Below the pieces are notes generated by a model that searched no databases, was not told the origin of the DNA, and saw only the letters and a list, made by a program, of their open reading frames with translations. Below are positions 1,966 to 25,277 of a stretch of 25,796 nucleotides of DNA, one piece after another. Origin of the DNA: a virus; the IMG/VR virus record IMGVR_UViG_3300047510_000319, positions 1-25,796 of that record, one strand, 5' to 3'. The first letter of the stretch is position 1, and the number at the start of each line of letters is the position of its first letter. The position numbers were made by a program, and so were the translations under genes.

Positions 1966-2361
1966 AGGTGCGTTAAATTGTAGCAGTGAGTCTTACAGTT
2001 TCAGAGTGGTGCGTTTTGTATTTCCACTATTTGTAACCCGTTGTCCTAGCCCTAGTTTTATAGGCACAACCTCTTACCCAGCCGGCATAACTATGTTACC
2101 CCTTTTTACCGTCTGTAAGTGCAACGGTTCTGTTGCTAGGTCCGTTGCCAACCCCCGTAACCCTTAGGCTACCATGAGCTCCTGAGGAGCATAGTTGCTG
2201 TTTGCGACTATAATTTTATTGCGTTAACCGAGCTTTCGCCGGGTGACTCCATCCTGCCTAGTTCGTCTGTCGATCCTGATCACCCCCGCAGTATGTTTTA
2301 TGGTGGAGGTGGGGGGAATCGCACCCCCGTCCAATCCGTGTTCAGTGAACTTCAACATCAC
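1966..2361 (-). ncRNA. ssrA: Circularly permuted two-piece tmRNA
   Basis: Transfer-messenger RNA that rescues stalled ribosomes. Order on the minus strand: acceptor piece first (about 2361 to 2301), ending with a T-arm (GGGGG-TGCGATT-CCCCC), the 3' strand CACCTCC, discriminator A and an encoded CCA. Next is a 13-nt spacer (2300-2288). Then comes the coding piece, starting GGGGGTG at 2287. GGGGGTG pairs with CACCTCC across all seven positions, including the G3-U70 wobble that marks alanine acceptors. The tag frame starts at resume codon GCA 2205 after TAGTC and reads ANSNYAPQELMVA, stop TAA at 2164-2166. G-rich and pseudoknot-like segments follow to about 1966. This permuted layout is typical of alphaproteobacteria and some cyanobacteria. 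The outer ends are approximate. Confidence 0.93.
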
Positions 2362-2365
2362 AAAC

Positions 2366-2396
2366 TATTTATACGCTAAAATTGTTATACAGTCAA
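2366..2396 (-). promoter_or_regulatory. tmRNA promoter, sigma70-type with an embedded late octamer
   Basis: TTGACT (2391-2396), 17 bases, then TATAAA (2368-2373), placing transcription start near 2361, at the start of the acceptor piece. The -10 extends to TATAAATA (2366-2373), a perfect T4 late-promoter octamer, so the gene could be read both early and late. The -35 lies inside the last codons of the upstream 75-aa gene. Confidence 0.72.
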
Positions 2397-2612
2397 GAAC
2401 TTTTTCGTGTATGCTTCTTCAAAACCGTCTTCGTGAACAACGTTTTCATGATTGCCCCAGATACGTTCAAAGTAACCGTTGTACACACTCATGATGTCTT
2501 TTTCGCTCCATGCATCTGGAATCAGATGCCCTTTGACAATCCAATAATATCTATTGGCTTCTTTGTGTTCGTATTGCGTCACAGAATATTTATCAATTGA
2601 ATTTTTCAACAA
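2385..2612 (-). CDS. Hypothetical protein, up to 75 aa
   Basis: I do not recognise this protein. It is rich in aromatic residues (YYWIVKGHLIPDAW, then SVYNGYFERIWGNHENVVHE) with no cysteine or membrane helix, so it should be a small soluble globular protein. The start is uncertain. TTG 2612 overlaps the SWIM gene by 20 nt and has no SD. GTG 2582 sits four bases after a late-promoter octamer. The stop lies just upstream of the tmRNA promoter. Codon use and aromatic content look like real coding sequence. Confidence 0.55.
   Translation of the reverse strand: MLKNSIDKYSVTQYEHKEANRYYWIVKGHLIPDAWSEKDIMSVYNGYFERIWGNHENVVHEDGFEEAYTKKFLTV
2587..2594 (-). promoter_or_regulatory. T4-type late promoter octamer GATAAATA
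   Basis: GATAAATA on the minus strand, overlapping the TGA stop of the SWIM gene (AAT TGA TAAATA). It would drive the 75-aa gene and the tmRNA late in infection. It lies within the longest version of the 75-aa frame. Confidence 0.5.
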
Positions 2613-18676: not shown

Positions 18677-19639
18677 TTACTTGTTAGCCCACTCTTCTTG
18701 AGTTGCTGCTAGTTCTGGATCAGGAACAAGACCGTATTGTGCTAGAGCACCGTCTGGGCCTGCCATATCGTCACTTACAAAGAACTGTACGTACTCTCTA
18801 AGTCCTGGGATTACTTCAAGATGTGCATCCTTAACATAGAAGTAAAGCGGACGACTGATTGGATAATCACCACTTGAGATTGTTTCTACGCTAGGAAATA
18901 CGCCGCTTACTGTAGCAACTTCTAGCTTGTCAGTGTTGTTCTGGTAGAAGCTAAGACCAAACACACCAAGTGAAGTTTGATTTGCTGCAAGACGTGCAAG
19001 TGTTTCAGTATAGTCGCCGTCAATGTCAACGGCTGCTCCGTCGGTGCGAACCTTAACACAAGCCTTCTTCTGATCGTCGTCTAGCTTTTCGACACCCAGT
19101 ACTGCTTTACAACCATCTTCCATGACCTTCACATCGAACACTTCACGTGTACCGTGCTTGGTTCCTGGAATATAAGCAAGAATTTCTACACCCGGTAGAG
19201 CAGGATCAACGTCACTCCAAAGTTTTGCAGTGCTGTCAGCATGTAGTGCAGTGTATAGTTGTGCTACTGTTAGATTGTCAATGTTGAGTTGATCAATGTT
19301 AGATGCAAATACAATGCCATCGTAACCAATTCTAACTTCTGTAATAGGGCCCACGGCTGCTTCGCACTTGGCCCATTCTTCTTCTTTCATCTTTGAACTG
19401 CTGTTTGCAATATCAACTGTGTTTTCGCCAGTGCCTTCACATAGCTTTTTACGGCCAGCACCCGACCCACCACCTTCTACTACTGGTGTTTGGAAATCGA
19501 AATTTTCACCAAATGATTCTGCAACAATAGTTGCGTATGGTAGAACTGTGCTTGAGCCTGTAACCTGTACGTTGTCACGTGCAAATGCACCTGTGGTTGT
19601 TAGGGCTACCACTGCCACTGCTGTTAGTAATGTTTTCAT
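18677..19639 (-). CDS. pstS: Phosphate-binding protein PstS
   Basis: Periplasmic high-affinity phosphate-binding subunit of the host PstSCAB transporter. The 320-aa precursor begins with a signal peptide (MKTLLTAVAVVALTTTGAFA, then RDNVQ). The phosphate-binding signature is VTGSSTVLPYATIV near the mature N-terminus, with a further ligand region DIANSSSKMKEEEW and the Gly/Ser-rich VVEGGGSGAGRK. ATG 19639 is chosen because AAAGGA lies upstream and the signal peptide starts there. The sequence looks alphaproteobacterial rather than cyanobacterial. Phage pstS genes are known as phosphate-stress auxiliary genes in cyanophages, where they respond to host PhoB. No clear Pho box is visible here. A 14-base palindrome lies just upstream of the SD. 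Confidence 0.95.
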   Translation of the reverse strand: MKTLLTAVAVVALTTTGAFARDNVQVTGSSTVLPYATIVAESFGENFDFQTPVVEGGGSGAGRKKLCEGTGENTVDIANSSSKMKEEEWAKCEAAVGPITEVRIGYDGIVFASNIDQLNIDNLTVAQLYTALHADSTAKLWSDVDPALPGVEILAYIPGTKHGTREVFDVKVMEDGCKAVLGVEKLDDDQKKACVKVRTDGAAVDIDGDYTETLARLAANQTSLGVFGLSFYQNNTDKLEVATVSGVFPSVETISSGDYPISRPLYFYVKDAHLEVIPGLREYVQFFVSDDMAGPDGALAQYGLVPDPELAATQEEWANK

Positions 19640-19650
19640 GTGTGTTATCC

Positions 19651-19664
19651 TTTTGTTAACAAAA
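19651..19664. repeat. Palindrome TTTTGTTAACAAAA before pstS
   Basis: A perfect 14-base palindrome ends a few bases before the pstS SD, in the leader. It could be an operator or a weak stem that affects translation. A second short direct repeat (CTGTTA twice, 8 bases apart, 19748-19763 on the minus strand) lies farther upstream. Confidence 0.45.
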
Positions 19665-19765
19665 TAAAACGCAAGGAGACTATATCTCTGTGTGAGCATG
19701 TATATGTGTCTGTGTCTCATTACGTTATTATTTACATGATACTATAACATAACAGTGTAACAGAT

Positions 19766-20521
19766 TTATGATAATTTTCTAACACTTTTATTATATTTTA
19801 TAGATTCTTCTATTAAAGTTAGATTTACATCAACTAATTTTCCTGTATGAACAATAGCTGCGGTGTCCTTAGGAAAACAGTGTCCACCAAATCCTCTCTC
19901 AGGTGTAATTGTAGTATGACTATCACCTATACGACTGTCTGTTGCTATTACATGACGCACCATTTCATACTCAATGCCTGTAGCAGAGCAGAGATCATAT
20001 ACCTGATTGAAGAAAGCAACCTTAGTTGCCAGAAAACTGTTACGGAAGTATTTGGCTAATATTAATTCTTCTGGCAATGCTACTTGTGTAGTAAACTTAT
20101 TGTCATCAAAAGCTACACGGAATACAGCGTGCCAAAATCCTACTGCGTCTCCGCCCATGTAAATTTCACGTGTAGCTAAGAAATCTTTCACTGCACTAGC
20201 TGCTCTTAAAAATTCAGGCGCAAAGGTTAAACTATGATTAGGATACAGTTCTCTTAGTTTCTGCCATCCTTCTAGGCTAACGGTGCTCCTAACTAAAATA
20301 GGTGTGTCTTGATCAACGCGACCTACAACATCAATCACGTTGTCAGCATAGCAAGCACCAGTATCGGACTGAGGAGTACTTACACAAACAATAACACCTT
20401 CAGGTTTGCCAAAGTCTGTATGGCCCAGTGCCGGATCGTAGATGTTTACATTAAATTTGTCTTTAAGGGCCGCATAGTGAGCTTGCCCTACAAACCCATA
20501 ACCTGCAATTGTAATGTTCAT
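19766..20521 (-). CDS. Short UDP-glucose/GDP-mannose dehydrogenase family protein
   Basis: A 251-aa enzyme of nucleotide-sugar metabolism. The NAD-binding Rossmann motif GYGFVG is at 7-12. The family signature APEFLRAASAVKDF is at about 101-114, followed by the helix LAKYFRNSFLATKVAFFNQV with Asn161 and Lys167, and the catalytic Cys215 in RGFGGHCFPKD. The usual C-terminal nucleotide-sugar binding domain (another 130-180 residues) is absent, and the protein ends soon after the catalytic cysteine. Either it is a compact phage form working with a partner, or it catalyses only part of the usual reaction. A sigma70-like promoter (TTGACA-17-TATTAT) lies upstream. Confidence 0.88.
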   Translation of the reverse strand: MNITIAGYGFVGQAHYAALKDKFNVNIYDPALGHTDFGKPEGVIVCVSTPQSDTGACYADNVIDVVGRVDQDTPILVRSTVSLEGWQKLRELYPNHSLTFAPEFLRAASAVKDFLATREIYMGGDAVGFWHAVFRVAFDDNKFTTQVALPEELILAKYFRNSFLATKVAFFNQVYDLCSATGIEYEMVRHVIATDSRIGDSHTTITPERGFGGHCFPKDTAAIVHTGKLVDVNLTLIEESIKYNKSVRKLS

Positions 20522-20569: not shown

Positions 20570-20645
20570 GTCATGCATTAAACGCATAACGAGTTTGCAC
20601 TAACCACAGTTGTTTTTTAGGTATAATCGTGTTAAATATATAGTT

Positions 20646-20665
20646 AATGCTGCAAGTGCAGCATT
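20646..20665 (+). promoter_or_regulatory. Leader hairpin before the microprotein operon
   Basis: AATGCTGC-AAGT-GCAGCATT forms a perfect eight-base stem with a tetraloop, 27 bases before ATG 20693. A TATAAT element near 20622 could be the -10; no matching -35 is seen at 17 bases. The hairpin may protect the 5' end or act as an attenuator. Confidence 0.5.
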
Positions 20666-20692: not shown

Positions 20693-20857
20693 ATGTTAAC
20701 ACTAAAACTATTTAACGACTGGGTGCATTTACTGTCATCTAGACCTGCAGACAAGGATCTAGCAACTTGGGCTCGCATTGAATACAAAAAAGATTCACTT
20801 TACGCTTATCACCACATGCTTGAGCATGGTGTTGCTCCCGGAGCAGGAGCAAGATAA
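20693..20857 (+). CDS. 54-aa microprotein, first of the chain
   Basis: Starts MLTLKLFNDWVHLLSSRPAD, continues KDLATWARIEYKKDSLYAYH, and ends HGVAPGAGAR. Soluble, helical, rich in aromatic and basic residues. I do not recognise the family with certainty. Its stop overlaps the next start (TAATG). An SD for the next gene (AGGAG) lies in its last codons, so the order of translation is coupled. Confidence 0.72.
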   Translation: MLTLKLFNDWVHLLSSRPADKDLATWARIEYKKDSLYAYHHMLEHGVAPGAGAR

Positions 20858-21015
20858 TGATTGCAAAAATCAAAACTTGGTATGCTCGTCATAGAGTATA
20901 CAAAACAACTCTAAGAGAGTTAAATTCTCTTACCTACCACGAACTACGTGACCTTGGACTTGCACCCGAAATGATCCCAGTGGTTGCCAGCGAAGCTGCT
21001 TACGGAATACGATAA
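20857..21015 (+). CDS. DUF1127-like small arginine-rich protein, 52 aa
   Basis: Starts MIAKIKTWYARHRVYKTTLR and continues ELNSLTYHELRDLGLAPEMI, which matches the DUF1127/YjiS pattern (basic helix, then LxxLxxxELxDLGL). In alphaproteobacteria these small proteins act in RNA turnover and in phosphate and carbon metabolism (for example Rhodobacter CcaF1, and Agrobacterium small arginine-rich proteins). A good SD (AGGAG, seven bases) precedes the ATG, and the ATG overlaps the previous stop. Two other frames in this chain show related composition. Confidence 0.82.
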   Translation: MIAKIKTWYARHRVYKTTLRELNSLTYHELRDLGLAPEMIPVVASEAAYGIR

Positions 21016-21206
21016 TGTTAGGTACAATAATGCTTAGAAATATGTTTAAAGATTTACTTAACACCCGTACTGAAAAGCAATATGTTGAAGAATATCTTGC
21101 AGACAGTATCAGTTTAGAAGATCTAGAACGTAGACAACGCACAATCAGCAAAGGTGAAGCACCTTGGCAGCTTAGAGCAAATCAAAACTTGAAAGGGTGG
21201 ATATAA
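21015..21206 (+). CDS. DUF3563-like small protein, up to 63 aa
   Basis: Starts MLGTIMLRNMFKDLLNTRTE (an internal ATG at 21030 is an alternative). The second half, EEYLADSISLEDLERRQRTI, resembles the YLAxSxDxxDLExRxR pattern of DUF3563, a proteobacterial small-protein family. It ends LRANQNLKGWI. One-base overlap with both neighbours (TAATG). Role unknown. Confidence 0.78.
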   Translation: MLGTIMLRNMFKDLLNTRTEKQYVEEYLADSISLEDLERRQRTISKGEAPWQLRANQNLKGWI

Positions 21207-21268
21207 TGTTAGATCCAGATCACAGTTACTATCGCGATCACAGCGAAAAGAAAGCGGGCGGCAAATAA
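21206..21268 (+). CDS. 20-aa microprotein
   Basis: MLDPDHSYYRDHSEKKAGGK; reads from an ATG overlapping the previous stop to a TAA that overlaps the next ATG. AAGGG lies upstream of the start. His/Tyr/Asp-rich and hydrophilic. It may be a real peptide or mainly a coupling link. Confidence 0.55.
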   Translation: MLDPDHSYYRDHSEKKAGGK

Positions 21269-21387
21269 TGTGGCAACGCATTATTGCGTTATTTGAACGC
21301 ACAGGTCGTGCTAGAGCCGCTGCTGAACTAGCACGTCAAGGACGTCATGATCTTGCTCGTAAGATCATGCTAGGAGAAAATCTATGA
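21268..21387 (+). CDS. 39-aa arginine-rich microprotein
   Basis: MWQRIIALFERTGRARAAAE, then LARQGRHDLARKIMLGENL. An amphipathic basic helix followed by a second helix with an LARQGRHDLAR motif; composition is similar to DUF1127 proteins but shorter. It overlaps the next gene by four bases (ATGA). The SD for the next gene (AGGAG) lies in its last codons. Confidence 0.7.
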   Translation: MWQRIIALFERTGRARAAAELARQGRHDLARKIMLGENL

Positions 21388-21455
21388 GTCATATTCCATA
21401 CTACGGTGAAGATGCTCCAAAAAAAGATCACAAGCCGGTTGACACTGATAAATAA
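21384..21455 (+). CDS. 23-aa microprotein, last of the chain
   Basis: MSHIPYYGEDAPKKDHKPVD, then TDK. AGGAG seven bases upstream of the ATG. Its last codons and stop (GAT AAA TAA) form the late-promoter octamer of the next gene. Hydrophilic with two Lys-rich patches. Confidence 0.62.
   Translation: MSHIPYYGEDAPKKDHKPVDTDK
21447..21454 (+). promoter_or_regulatory. Late promoter GATAAATA for the 102-aa gene
   Basis: GATAAATA on the plus strand built from the last codons of the 23-aa gene, about 48 bases before the next ATG. Confidence 0.75.
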
Positions 21456-21502
21456 TTTTGTTACACTAGTAACAGTTCACACACATACACAAGGAGAAAA
21501 TG

Positions 21503-21811
21503 ATGAACGATAAATTCCCAAGCGAAATGATGGAACAGTTTGCTACCATGATGAAGGCTGCAATGCCTACTGTAAAAGCAAACAAAAATGGTTTTGAAAT
21601 CCGTACCAAGGTACTTGAGTTTGCTCAGAACCAAGCATGGCAAGACTATCACGCAAAGTGGGGTCAGTTTGAAACTTCAATCAGCAAAGACGGTAAAGAA
21701 GTTGTTACTAAAGTAGAACTTCCAAGTGTTCCTGGTGCTGATGCTGTTCTCGAAACTGCTCAGAAGTTTTACGATTTCGTAAGCAACAACTCAACTAAAA
21801 CTAAAGACTAA
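21503..21811 (+). CDS. 102-aa phasin-like/structural-type protein
   Basis: Helical protein starting MNDKFPSEMMEQFATMMKAA, then KANKNGFEIRTKVLEFAQNQ, with a short strand region (EVVTKVELPSVPGADAVLET) and a final helix (AQKFYDFVSNN). I recall similar proteins in cyanophages and pelagiphages, function unknown. The helix pattern is reminiscent of phasins. ATG 21503 is preferred over 21500 because AAGGAG is then at better spacing. The late promoter and strong SD suggest high late expression. Confidence 0.78.
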   Translation: MNDKFPSEMMEQFATMMKAAMPTVKANKNGFEIRTKVLEFAQNQAWQDYHAKWGQFETSISKDGKEVVTKVELPSVPGADAVLETAQKFYDFVSNNSTKTKD

Positions 21812-21926: not shown

Positions 21927-24900
21927 TTATCTACGCTTAAAGTGATAGTCACCATCAGGTCCATAGTTTGTAAACTGTGCTACTAACTCGAATCCTATGC
22001 TGTGCATATATTCAAACACAGTTTCTCTTAGAGGCGCACCTTTGTTATATTCAACGCTTTGCAGTTCTAGTATAACATGTTCTACAGTTTCTAATACTTC
22101 TTCTGCGCCACGCAGTACATCAAGTTCTGCACCCTGTACATCCATTTTTAACAGTTCAGGCTTAGGCAACTGTTTTAATCTATGTACTGCATCCAGTGTT
22201 ACTGTTTGATAAGTGCGCTTGTGTGTTTCATTAAAGTAAAATGCACTGTTGGCATTGATGTCACTGTTTTCAATATAATAACTGTTGCCGCCAGGATGCC
22301 AATCATTCTGATAGAACTCTACAGTTTTGCCACTCGCATTACTTAATACTCCTATGTGATAAGGTATACCTTTTTCTTTGTATAGAAATTCACAACTGGG
22401 CATTGCTTCGAACGCAACTATATTGCTGTTGGGCCAAATCTGTTCTGCTTCATTGGTCCAGTGCAGCACACATGCACCTACATCATATATCACACTAGGC
22501 TCAAAGCCACTGTCTTTTAAATATTGTAGATAGTCCACATGCTGTTTTGGCAATAGTCGTTGGTTGCTGAGATCTCTCAATCTATCAGTAATGCTGTTGT
22601 CCGCAGCAGGTATTGAATCGTCTACGGTAAACTCACCTTGTCCTATGTGTCTACACTTAATAGCAGTGTCAGCATAGATCTTAAAACCTTTCTTGAGTGC
22701 TTTGGCACAAAAGTCTACGTCTTCGCTGATAGTGTTGGTGTGATTCAATGCGCTGTGATAAACAAAGTGTGGATAGGGTATTGCTTGAAACACAGACTTT
22801 TTGATTAGTACACATCCAAAGCCACAGCCGCCGATGGGCACAAGTCCGCGGTCTTTGATTTTACCGTAAGGTATGTTGCTAACGCCGCCTCGGTCATTGT
22901 TTTCGTATATTTCCAGAGTGTGATGCCCTGGCTTGCGTTGTATGTACAAGCCGCTGACCACGTCAACGTCATGCGACAGAAATCTTCTCAGAGTGTCTCT
23001 TGGTAATACAATATCACTGTCTACACTCAGTAGATAGTCATATCCTTTGACTACCCAGTCTGCAATTAGATTTCGTATTTGATCTATGTTATAACCATAG
23101 AAGTATTGAAACACTGTCTGATAGCCCTCTGGAACGTCCAGATCGTATATACTCTTGAAGGTTTCCGGTTCTATATACTTGGCTGTGGGTATCGCTATCA
23201 GGATCTTTTTTTTTGGTTGATTCATGTTGACAATCTCTCTTGCATTTTTATTTTGTTCTGTGCTGTTAACTTTGTAATCATTAAGCGGATTAACGTCATT
23301 GTAGTTTACCATTATGTCTTGCACTGCCTGTACACTGTTAGGATCAGCCTGCTCTATCAATGCATAGAATACACTGCCATCGCCGCCTGCGCCGTACCAT
23401 TCGCCGTTAGTGTCTTTGAACAGTGTGTCATCTACGCTGTCTATTAGACTTTTTCTAAATGTTCTTAGATGTGTATAGGGCAGTATCCAGTTGAAATGGT
23501 GTGTTCTATATGCTCTTGTTTCTTTAATGTGCTGTGGATATTCCTGTGCTATCAAAGGAATGTTATCTGCTATGCTCCAGCAACTGCCATAGGTAAACTC
23601 TGCTCCGTCTAGGTATCGATCGTTGTAGTAGTGAAATATGCTGTTGTCATTGGTTAAACTGTCGTCGCCATCCAGTAACATGATAATGCTGTCTGTTTCT
23701 AAACTTCTAACAGTTTCAATTTGATTTCTCACTGCACCGTAGTGACTAGTTCTCTTTACAATTTTGAACTTGCTTTGTATATGTTCAGGCAAAGATGCAA
23801 TAGTCCGTTCTATTACAGCAACGCTTTGATCTGTAGAACAGTCATCAATCAGCGTGTGTTCCCAGTTGTCATAGTCCTGTGCAGCAACACTGAGTATGTG
23901 ATTTTCTAAGTAGTGTTCTGCATTATAGAAAGGACTTACAATCTCTATCTTCTGTTGTGGATAACTGGCTGTGTGCGGCATTTCACAGGGATTGGTATAG
24001 CGTCTTTTCCATATCTTGTGTATGCGTTGATTTATTTTTTGTACTGCTCTGTATTCATCCACAGGTAGATGCTGTTTTAACTTGTAATAGAAATGCTGTT
24101 TCCACTGTAGAGCCACTGTGTCCCAACCTACTACGTCTTTTATTATATTACAATAGTTTTGTTTTTGTTGATGTAGATATCGATCACAATATGCCTGTAC
24201 AGTAACAGCAACAAACTTTTCAATCTGTTGTGGCGAGTTAATGTTTGGGAACAGATTGTTTGGTACTACAGAATAATCAATCACATAGCAGGCTTCGGCC
24301 AGTGCTATTTCTTCTAGTGCTCCAAATCTGCAGGTTATCAACGGTGTGTTGTAGCAGAGACTTTCCACTGAACTGATACCAAATGTTTCTGGAAACGCAC
24401 TTGGATAGATCATGAAGCTAGATTGTTGAAGTATGTGTGCAATAGACTTTTGTGATATAACGCCTGTAAACTCTATGTCCAACTGTTGGTTCACAGGATC
24501 ATTGGCCATAACATGCCAATCCTGCTCCTGTTGATCAGGAGCACTGCTCTTGCCAAATCTATAGTATCCGCCTATTATTTTTAGTTTAGCATTGGGCAAC
24601 TGTTGTTTGACTCTGGGCCAAATTTCTTTTACTAAAGGTACCATGCCTTTGGTAACACTGGCATTGTATACAAACAGATCAGGGTCTTTGCTTTTTAGAT
24701 CTGTTTGAGTATCGTAGATGTTAACGCCGTTCCTAGTTATAAAAACTTTGGGTTTAAGCACTTCGAAGTTGCGTCTTGCACCGTGATCGCAGTTGGTAAT
24801 GTAGGTTAGATGCCAGTCGCTCAGTGTAAAGATATCTGTGATTCTGTTTTCGGTTGCAAGTTTTTCTATCAGCAAATCGCCTAGACAGAAGGTGTCGTGC

Positions 24901-25277
24901 ATCCAAAGTATTCGCAATTTGGCTTTGCTGAGTATTCTGTTGTAGAGATCAAGCTGTTGAAATGGTGCTGCTCTGTTGTCTCTCAGCTGTGGATAGTCTT
25001 TGGGATCTGTGAAAGGTATTACAGTTCTTGAACTGATTACAATATCAAAGTCCCAGTCCTTGGCTAGATCTCTTGTGGGTCTGTAGACAACACCGTTGTA
25101 TGTGCCAGGCTGTGTGTCTTCTGAATCACAGTTGTTGAATACTGTTACACTAAACCCAAGTTTAGCTAGTTGTTCGCTGGCAAAAGTAACAGCACTTTCT
25201 GAGCCACCTAGACCTTGTTTGTATACTGTTGTACCATCATAGGGTATACCAATGATGTCTATGATTGCGATCTTCAT
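21927..25277 (-). CDS. Multidomain glycosyltransferase (GT4-GT2-GT-A) fused to FkbM methyltransferase
   Basis: An 1116-aa cytoplasmic enzyme with four units in a row. Residues 1-400 are a GT-B, GT4-like glycosyltransferase (GGSESAV at 24-30, NASVTKGM, and an E-x7-E pair Glu297/Glu305 in FPETFGISSVES). Residues about 443-685 are a GT2 domain (VSPFYNAEHYLENHILSVAA, DDCS at 478, DGDD at 536). Residues about 690-890 are a second GT-A-type domain (DSD at 753-755, GGCGFGCVLIKK, SEDVDFCAKA). Residues about 905-1116 are an FkbM-type SAM methyltransferase (YDVGA at 931-935, KMDVQGAELDVL at 1044). It would build and O-methylate a glycan on phage protein, DNA or the host surface. It has its own sigma70-like promoter and a terminator. 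Confidence 0.9.
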   Translation of the reverse strand: MKIAIIDIIGIPYDGTTVYKQGLGGSESAVTFASEQLAKLGFSVTVFNNCDSEDTQPGTYNGVVYRPTRDLAKDWDFDIVISSRTVIPFTDPKDYPQLRDNRAAPFQQLDLYNRILSKAKLRILWMHDTFCLGDLLIEKLATENRITDIFTLSDWHLTYITNCDHGARRNFEVLKPKVFITRNGVNIYDTQTDLKSKDPDLFVYNASVTKGMVPLVKEIWPRVKQQLPNAKLKIIGGYYRFGKSSAPDQQEQDWHVMANDPVNQQLDIEFTGVISQKSIAHILQQSSFMIYPSAFPETFGISSVESLCYNTPLITCRFGALEEIALAEACYVIDYSVVPNNLFPNINSPQQIEKFVAVTVQAYCDRYLHQQKQNYCNIIKDVVGWDTVALQWKQHFYYKLKQHLPVDEYRAVQKINQRIHKIWKRRYTNPCEMPHTASYPQQKIEIVSPFYNAEHYLENHILSVAAQDYDNWEHTLIDDCSTDQSVAVIERTIASLPEHIQSKFKIVKRTSHYGAVRNQIETVRSLETDSIIMLLDGDDSLTNDNSIFHYYNDRYLDGAEFTYGSCWSIADNIPLIAQEYPQHIKETRAYRTHHFNWILPYTHLRTFRKSLIDSVDDTLFKDTNGEWYGAGGDGSVFYALIEQADPNSVQAVQDIMVNYNDVNPLNDYKVNSTEQNKNAREIVNMNQPKKKILIAIPTAKYIEPETFKSIYDLDVPEGYQTVFQYFYGYNIDQIRNLIADWVVKGYDYLLSVDSDIVLPRDTLRRFLSHDVDVVSGLYIQRKPGHHTLEIYENNDRGGVSNIPYGKIKDRGLVPIGGCGFGCVLIKKSVFQAIPYPHFVYHSALNHTNTISEDVDFCAKALKKGFKIYADTAIKCRHIGQGEFTVDDSIPAADNSITDRLRDLSNQRLLPKQHVDYLQYLKDSGFEPSVIYDVGACVLHWTNEAEQIWPNSNIVAFEAMPSCEFLYKEKGIPYHIGVLSNASGKTVEFYQNDWHPGGNSYYIENSDINANSAFYFNETHKRTYQTVTLDAVHRLKQLPKPELLKMDVQGAELDVLRGAEEVLETVEHVILELQSVEYNKGAPLRETVFEYMHSIGFELVAQFTNYGPDGDYHFKRR

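Follow-up and report, generated by a model that had tools for sequence, protein, structure and literature searches.

A conserved chain of six small overlapping genes with a DUF1127 member and a phage-specific partner in a marine phage of a probable Rhodobacterales host

DUF1127 proteins of bacteria and phages

Small proteins of the family DUF1127 (PF06568) occur in nearly every Rhodobacterales genome sampled (60 of 61), and their function, for which binding of the sensor kinase PhoR and binding of RNA have been described, is only now emerging. The closest described systems are the DUF1127 proteins SDP1-3 of Agrobacterium with YjiS of Escherichia coli, and CcaF1 of Rhodobacter sphaeroides, encoded at the CIN1 locus together with the CcsR small RNAs (sRNAs). 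The Agrobacterium proteins and E. coli YjiS bind PhoR, and their loss raises pst expression; members from Sinorhizobium, Rhodobacter and E. coli complement the mutant (PMC12501420). Here, we analysed a DUF1127 gene that is part of a chain of six small genes, p1 to p6, at positions 20693-21455 (+ strand) of the 25,796-nucleotide (nt) IMG/VR virus record IMGVR_UViG_3300047510_000319; the whole of this stretch is called the window. The chain is a real, conserved and widespread small-protein module, and it is larger than was first noted. Its DUF1127 proteins share the Pfam domain, a similar size and a positive net charge with SDP1-3 and YjiS, and in this clade the gene sometimes lies beside a phosphate gene. 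They differ from SDP1-3 and YjiS in being phage-borne and coupled to a partner gene, p5, in their lower arginine (Arg) content, in the C-terminal tag NxNLxGW[VI] carried by many of them and in a DIGLxR motif that is degraded in the subclade of the window. With CcaF1 they have the alphaproteobacterial setting in common, and several relatives of the window also carry a structured RNA beside the gene; however, this RNA lies upstream in the phages and not downstream.

Pfam-confirmed DUF1127 genes were found in 12 isolated phages, namely phiM12 and Phosso (Sinorhizobium), Atu_ph07 (Agrobacterium), RHph_I1_18 (Rhizobium), OC (Ochrobactrum), P12053L (Celeribacter), SIO1, CRP-3, CRP-6, CRP-403 and CRP-603 (roseobacters) and Melnitz (OM43). 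All except Melnitz, i.e. 11 of the 12, infect alphaproteobacteria. In RHph_I1_18 the gene is surrounded by RNA repair genes for a CCA-adding enzyme, a tRNA-His guanylyltransferase, an RNA ligase and a kinase. In SIO1, P12053L, CRP-403 and CRP-6 it lies directly behind mazG, the two genes sharing 4 nt. As in the window, the phage DUF1127 gene of these four overlaps its operon neighbour by a few bases, but the partner is MazG, ribonucleotide reductase lies directly downstream in three of them, and p5 was not seen in the stretches examined. The SIO1 gene (NC_002519.1; L179 1950-2132), which encodes 60 amino acids (aa) and overlaps both mazG and the ribonucleotide reductase gene, is unannotated. 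Most genes of the chain are likewise short enough to be overlooked by gene callers, as had been anticipated and as this classic roseophage illustrates. Among the isolates, the Methylophilales phage Melnitz (Kyanoviridae, 141.5 kb) is completely sequenced, and in it the consecutive genes 44, 45 and 46 are p1-like, p5-like and DUF1127, the latter two overlapping by 1 nt. The order p1-p5-DUF1127 differs from that of the window, the NLxGW tag, DUF3563, p4 and p6 are missing, and the genes are annotated only as hypothetical or DUF1127. No paper on phage DUF1127 was found among the titles and abstracts retrieved. DUF1127 is repeatedly carried by phages of alphaproteobacteria, in one large group nearly always together with the same partner p5. 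This recurrent carriage turns an obscure family into a likely phage tool and supplies natural variants of it.

The six-gene chain and its conservation

The chain is made up of the following genes:

20693..20857, + strand: p1, 54 aa; unnamed family with the pattern [WY]A[RK]xEYKxD..YAY..M, apparently the same family as p9 of relatives
20857..21015, + strand: p2, 52 aa; DUF1127 (PF06568), three predicted helices
21015..21206, + strand: p3, 63 aa; DUF3563 (PF12086)
21206..21268, + strand: p4, 20 aa; MLDPDHSY..EKKxGGK
21268..21387, + strand: p5, 39 aa; Arg-rich helical hairpin GRARAAAELxRxGxxxxAxxxML, partner gene of DUF1127
21384..21455, + strand: p6, 23 aa; M[SA]HIPYYGE..KPVD..K, 3' end overlapping the promoter of the next gene

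An original prediction made from the letters of this DNA had described six frames linked by overlaps of 1-4 nt. The frames were confirmed at their predicted lengths, with junctions of -1, -1, -1, -1 and -4 nt from p1 to p6. For comparison, the 763 bases of the chain were shuffled 2000 times with dinucleotides preserved, counting ATG frames of at least 20 aa with -1/-4 links. The longest linked chain comprised six frames in the natural sequence versus a maximum of three in the shuffles, which was reached 6 times, while four linked frames were obtained in 0 of 2000.

The family assignments held as well. Protein p2 matched Pfam DUF1127 with an expect value (E) of 1.5e-10 and 41.1 bits (curated cut-off 23.3), and the profile was matched by p2 and by all 37 distinct aligned relatives (37/37), most of which contain the core motif DIGIxRGDI. 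Its AlphaFold2 model is a small helical protein with a mean predicted local distance difference test (pLDDT) score of 87.5. The resemblance of p3 to DUF3563 was borne out at E 3.2e-7 and 30.7 bits (cut-off 26.9). Like p3, five of six other members scanned pass this cut-off (L003, L009, L015, L043 and L091), while L042 stays below it at 21.2 bits; some phage members differ in carrying the NxNLxGW[VI] end and in being part of a chain of overlapping genes. No mention of DUF3563 was found in the literature, and a DUF3563 search of ten supposed host genomes gave no match, but the control queries were equally silent. The third, Arg-rich member of the prediction is the 39-aa frame p5 with 7 Arg. The Pfam search of the six frames assigned no family to p1, p4, p5 and p6, and an NCBIfam search gave no matches.

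Relatives were collected by IMG/VR scans with four of the proteins, which yielded about 90 loci, 59 of them distinct by upstream sequence. Conservation between related phages had been named beforehand as a test of the prediction, and each of p1 to p6 was recovered as a protein in related viral contigs with unchanged gene order. Pooled ratios of nonsynonymous to synonymous polymorphism (pN/pS) were 0.42 for p1, 0.43 for p2, 0.35 for p3, 0.34 for p4, 0.25 for p5 and 0.35 for p6. For pairs of equal length, pN/pS was 0.16 in the true frame versus 1.25-1.71 in four of the five alternative frames; the fifth, an antisense frame, gave 0.27, probably reflecting codon-phase coupling. Judged by these substitution patterns, the six short frames are maintained as proteins under purifying selection. 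In L015, p3 and p4 form one continuous in-frame gene, and this fusion supports p4 as a real peptide. The view that the six are chance or fossil reading frames might draw on their very small size and on the four frames lacking a Pfam family, but it is contradicted by the frame conservation, by the purifying selection and by a chain length never matched in shuffles, and we consider it highly improbable. Junctions, shuffles and pN/pS together support the predicted small-protein module with overlapping genes in a phage.

The chains of the relatives are built from few families: p1 (with p9), DUF1127, DUF3563, p4, p5 (with p8) and p6. Among 20 larger records, one DUF1127 gene was present in 17 and p5 in 18, mostly directly adjacent. 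DUF1127 and p5 are the constant core and near-constant partners in this phage group.

The partner p5 and the C-terminal tag

The gene p5 was not found in 293 Rhodobacterales genomes searched, while the same query recovers it in phages, and among isolated phages no relatives besides Melnitz were found; this sets the phage module apart from the CIN1 locus. Its structure model (pLDDT 90.3) is a helix hairpin, for which Foldseek gave no significant match, the best being FICD (E 5, template modelling score 0.66), and weak TPR_8 matches occurred in 4 of 45 members. The models of p5 and DUF1127 are alike at the start, each opening with a helix at 2-23 that is followed, after a turn of three residues, by a second helix. 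A diverged DUF1127 paralogue as origin of p5 was rejected at an hhalign probability of 10.7% and with 0 of 45 members matching Pfam DUF1127. Overall, what the models indicate in both cases is a small helical protein and nothing further.

Inspection of C-termini revealed that the sequence NxNL[KR]GW[VI] ends members of the DUF1127, DUF3563 and p1 families, which are apparently unrelated to each other. A C-terminal tag common to three such families is an unusual feature and open to testing. In the window it is found on p3:

21180..21203, + strand: tag NQNLKGWI of p3; its DNA includes the Shine-Dalgarno-like AAAGGG of the following start

The tag is fused to the Shine-Dalgarno sequence and TAATG start of the following gene. 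In 42 of the 46 chains containing p5 or p8, exactly one protein is tagged; the remaining 4 have no tagged protein. In 42 of 42 cases the next start overlapped the stop of the tagged gene by 1 nt, the next gene being p5/p8 39 times and p4 3 times. The tag marks the protein encoded immediately before p5, or before p4-p5. A DNA scan of IMG/VR with the tag query AAYNNNAAYYTNNNRGGNTGGRTNTAATG, into which the gene families did not enter, gave at least 120 sites. Among the 120 matches listed, all end DUF1127 (106), DUF3563 (9) or p1 (5), and the gene after the tag is p5/p8 in 115, DUF1127 in 2 and p4 in 1, with 2 cut off; as TGG and TAATG are both in the query pattern, the scan says nothing on their strictness. 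NLxGW endings were found in 0 of 12,918 frames taken from Rhodobacterales-type loci. In two relatives without p5 (L088, L091) the tag is degraded, and in a third, L083, whose p3 is 97% identical, it is retained. This distribution is compatible with dependence of the tag on p5, through docking or through aiding p5 translation.

These two roles differ in what the finished peptide would do. The tag with TAATG might mainly be a translation-coupling device, in which nascent peptide and Shine-Dalgarno sequence would serve re-initiation and the finished peptide would have no role. We regard this as a serious possibility, somewhat short of even odds. The -1 overlapping start behind every tagged protein agrees with it, as does the fact that one DNA signal terminates three different families. 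The fifth residue of the tag is variable, but its codon almost always has a purine as third base, which produces an RGG Shine-Dalgarno sequence. However, codons vary (five for Leu, four for Gly) at the constant residues N, N, L, G and W, and N-x-N-L precedes the ribosome-binding site. Untagged -1 junctions also occur in the same chains, and L264 and L273 carry GW-type tags on DUF3563 and DUF1127 alike. A broader proposal, which we put forward tentatively and hold to be somewhat less likely than not, would see here an undescribed, widespread phage cassette. In it, the phage-only adaptor p5 would pair with any one of several exchangeable small basic proteins (DUF1127, DUF3563, p1) that share a C-terminal recognition peptide; by exchanging host-targeting heads while keeping the docking tail, the phage would re-program either sensor kinases or the turnover of RNA. 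With a phage-specific partner, p5, and a tag common to three families, the module is more than one further DUF1127 gene.

Possible targets, promoters and genomic neighbourhood

We favour, with a probability of about 0.4, an operon by which the phage would direct small regulatory proteins at its host. In this reading, the DUF1127 protein would imitate host DUF1127 on PhoR, with p5 as adaptor and with coupled translation. The chain would be transcribed from its own sigma70-like promoter and translation would be coupled from each gene to the next. Most simply, phages would have acquired their DUF1127 from hosts and would use it on the target that the host protein has. The phage protein may bind the charged region of the membrane kinase PhoR, perhaps also of other kinases, and shift it to the phosphatase state, so that the infected cell would behave as if phosphate were sufficient; alternatively, it might compete with host DUF1127 and have the reverse effect. 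The p5 protein would be a phage-specific adaptor working with the tagged protein, and the tag would either dock p5 or act in cis as a nascent-chain signal for TAATG re-initiation. PhoR or another sensor kinase was ranked before RNA because, in view of the cross-species complementation, action on it is the most general known activity of the family.

The original prediction had already suggested, from the nearby pstS, a re-tuning of host RNA turnover or of the phosphate response, both of which are plausible, and the PhoR binding published for bacteria (PMC12501420) offers a concrete mechanism for the phosphate idea. The genes in question are:

18677..19720, - strand: pstS (PBP_like_2, Pfam E 1.8e-52), divergent neighbour behind ugd
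19766-20521, - strand: ugd, between pstS and the chain

The argument from proximity stood in part: pstS adjoins the module in 4/4 related records that have it, but only 4/20 do, and other metabolic genes also adjoin the chain. Alternative oxidase, cupredoxin or ugd are found beside or behind it in other phages, and the locus is therefore regarded as a hotspot for metabolic genes. A dedicated phosphate module as a general rule was rejected. The nearest cellular relatives of the phage PstS are mostly from Rhodobacterales (54-68% identity). Since this one gene is closest to Rhodobacterales (up to 65-68%), the host probably belongs to this order and is roseobacter-like.

Several points weigh against action on PhoR. 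Most module-bearing records examined are without pstS (pstS is present in 4/20, DUF1127 in 17/20). The Arg of the DIGLxR motif is lost in the window subclade (DLGLAPEM). The Arg content of p2 is 5/52 (9.6%) and the mean of phage DUF1127 members 8.1%, i.e. about 8% versus about 14% reported for the Arg-rich family, which is a family average and not a strict criterion (PMC12501420). Moreover, CcaF1 of Rhodobacter is a proven RNA-binding DUF1127 protein that acts with RNase E (PMC10253847). Accordingly, the main rival is that phage DUF1127 would bind host transcripts or sRNAs and steer RNase E-dependent turnover like CcaF1, while p5 and the remaining peptides would serve it as cofactors. CcaF1 comes from the probable host order, the DUF1127 gene of RHph_I1_18 sits among RNA repair and processing genes, and in many related phages DUF1127 is closely preceded by a structured leader RNA, recalling the CcaF1-CcsR linkage. 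The lower Arg content counts against RNA binding as well, the window is without a structured leader, and Salmonella YjiS was not observed to bind RNA (PMC12501420); we consider RNA as the target unlikely, if still the nearest competitor. Rather improbable, in our view, is that the small proteins serve processes of the phage itself (virion assembly, replication or late gene timing) with the DUF1127 fold as a re-used basic helix bundle. Such a use would suit the promoter elements of early and late type in front of the neighbouring gene p7, the lack of known relatives for p1, p4 and p6 and the varying neighbourhood, but DUF1127 is found in unrelated phages whose hosts themselves use DUF1127, which points to a host target.

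The following elements were located around the chain:

20610..20638, + strand: putative sigma70-like chain promoter TTGTTT - 17 nt - TAAATA, by consensus only
20646..20665, + strand: 5' leader hairpin of the chain, AATGCTGC..GCAGCATT, from folding; similar hairpins in L002, L015, L016 and L091
21439..21467, + strand: putative p7 promoter TTGACA-17-TACACT with embedded T4-late-like GATAAATA, by consensus match
21500..21811, + strand: p7, 103 aa; conserved, outside the overlapping chain, used as query for relatives (80 related viral loci)

Of 51 loci, 16 have a TAAATA-type -10 element ahead of the first gene of the chain, and in most of these it is preceded at a distance of 17 nt by a hexamer resembling TTGTTN. 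A conserved element of about ATGCA..CGCATAnCG..TTGCA, possibly a regulator site, was observed upstream of the putative -35 in about 16 loci (20572-20612 in the window). For the p7 promoter, 48 of 57 relatives showed at most 2 mismatches to TTGACA-N16-18-TATAAT, with a mean of 1.8 versus 4.1 in shuffles. TTGACA (21439-21444) and GATAAATA (21447-21454) lie inside the last codons of p6. As coding sequence and promoter overlap here, conservation of the p6 C-terminus may partly reflect the promoter, and it was discounted as proof of protein selection. No relatives of p7 were found among isolated phages. Several relatives (L025, L035, L036, L045, L061, L062 and others) contain a conserved structured leader RNA about 20-150 nt upstream of DUF1127, made up of three short hairpins with some compensatory changes; it was not seen in the window. 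An Rfam scan found no family in the leader, the only match being transfer-messenger RNA (tmRNA).

Further genes of the window were noted. An alternative oxidase gene (664-1278, - strand; Pfam AOX, E 7e-81) lies beside a gene for a plastocyanin/azurin-type copper protein (222-683, - strand; E 5.5e-17); in other phages, the interval from the microprotein chain to p7 holds relatives of both. At 2118-2400 (- strand) a permuted alphaproteobacterial tmRNA gene was detected (Rfam RF04321, RF01849); a comparable case is the two-piece tmRNA that phage Melnitz carries (PMC9004378). Finally, 21927-25277 (- strand) holds a single frame of 1116 aa with glycosyltransferase domains and an FkbM methyltransferase domain.
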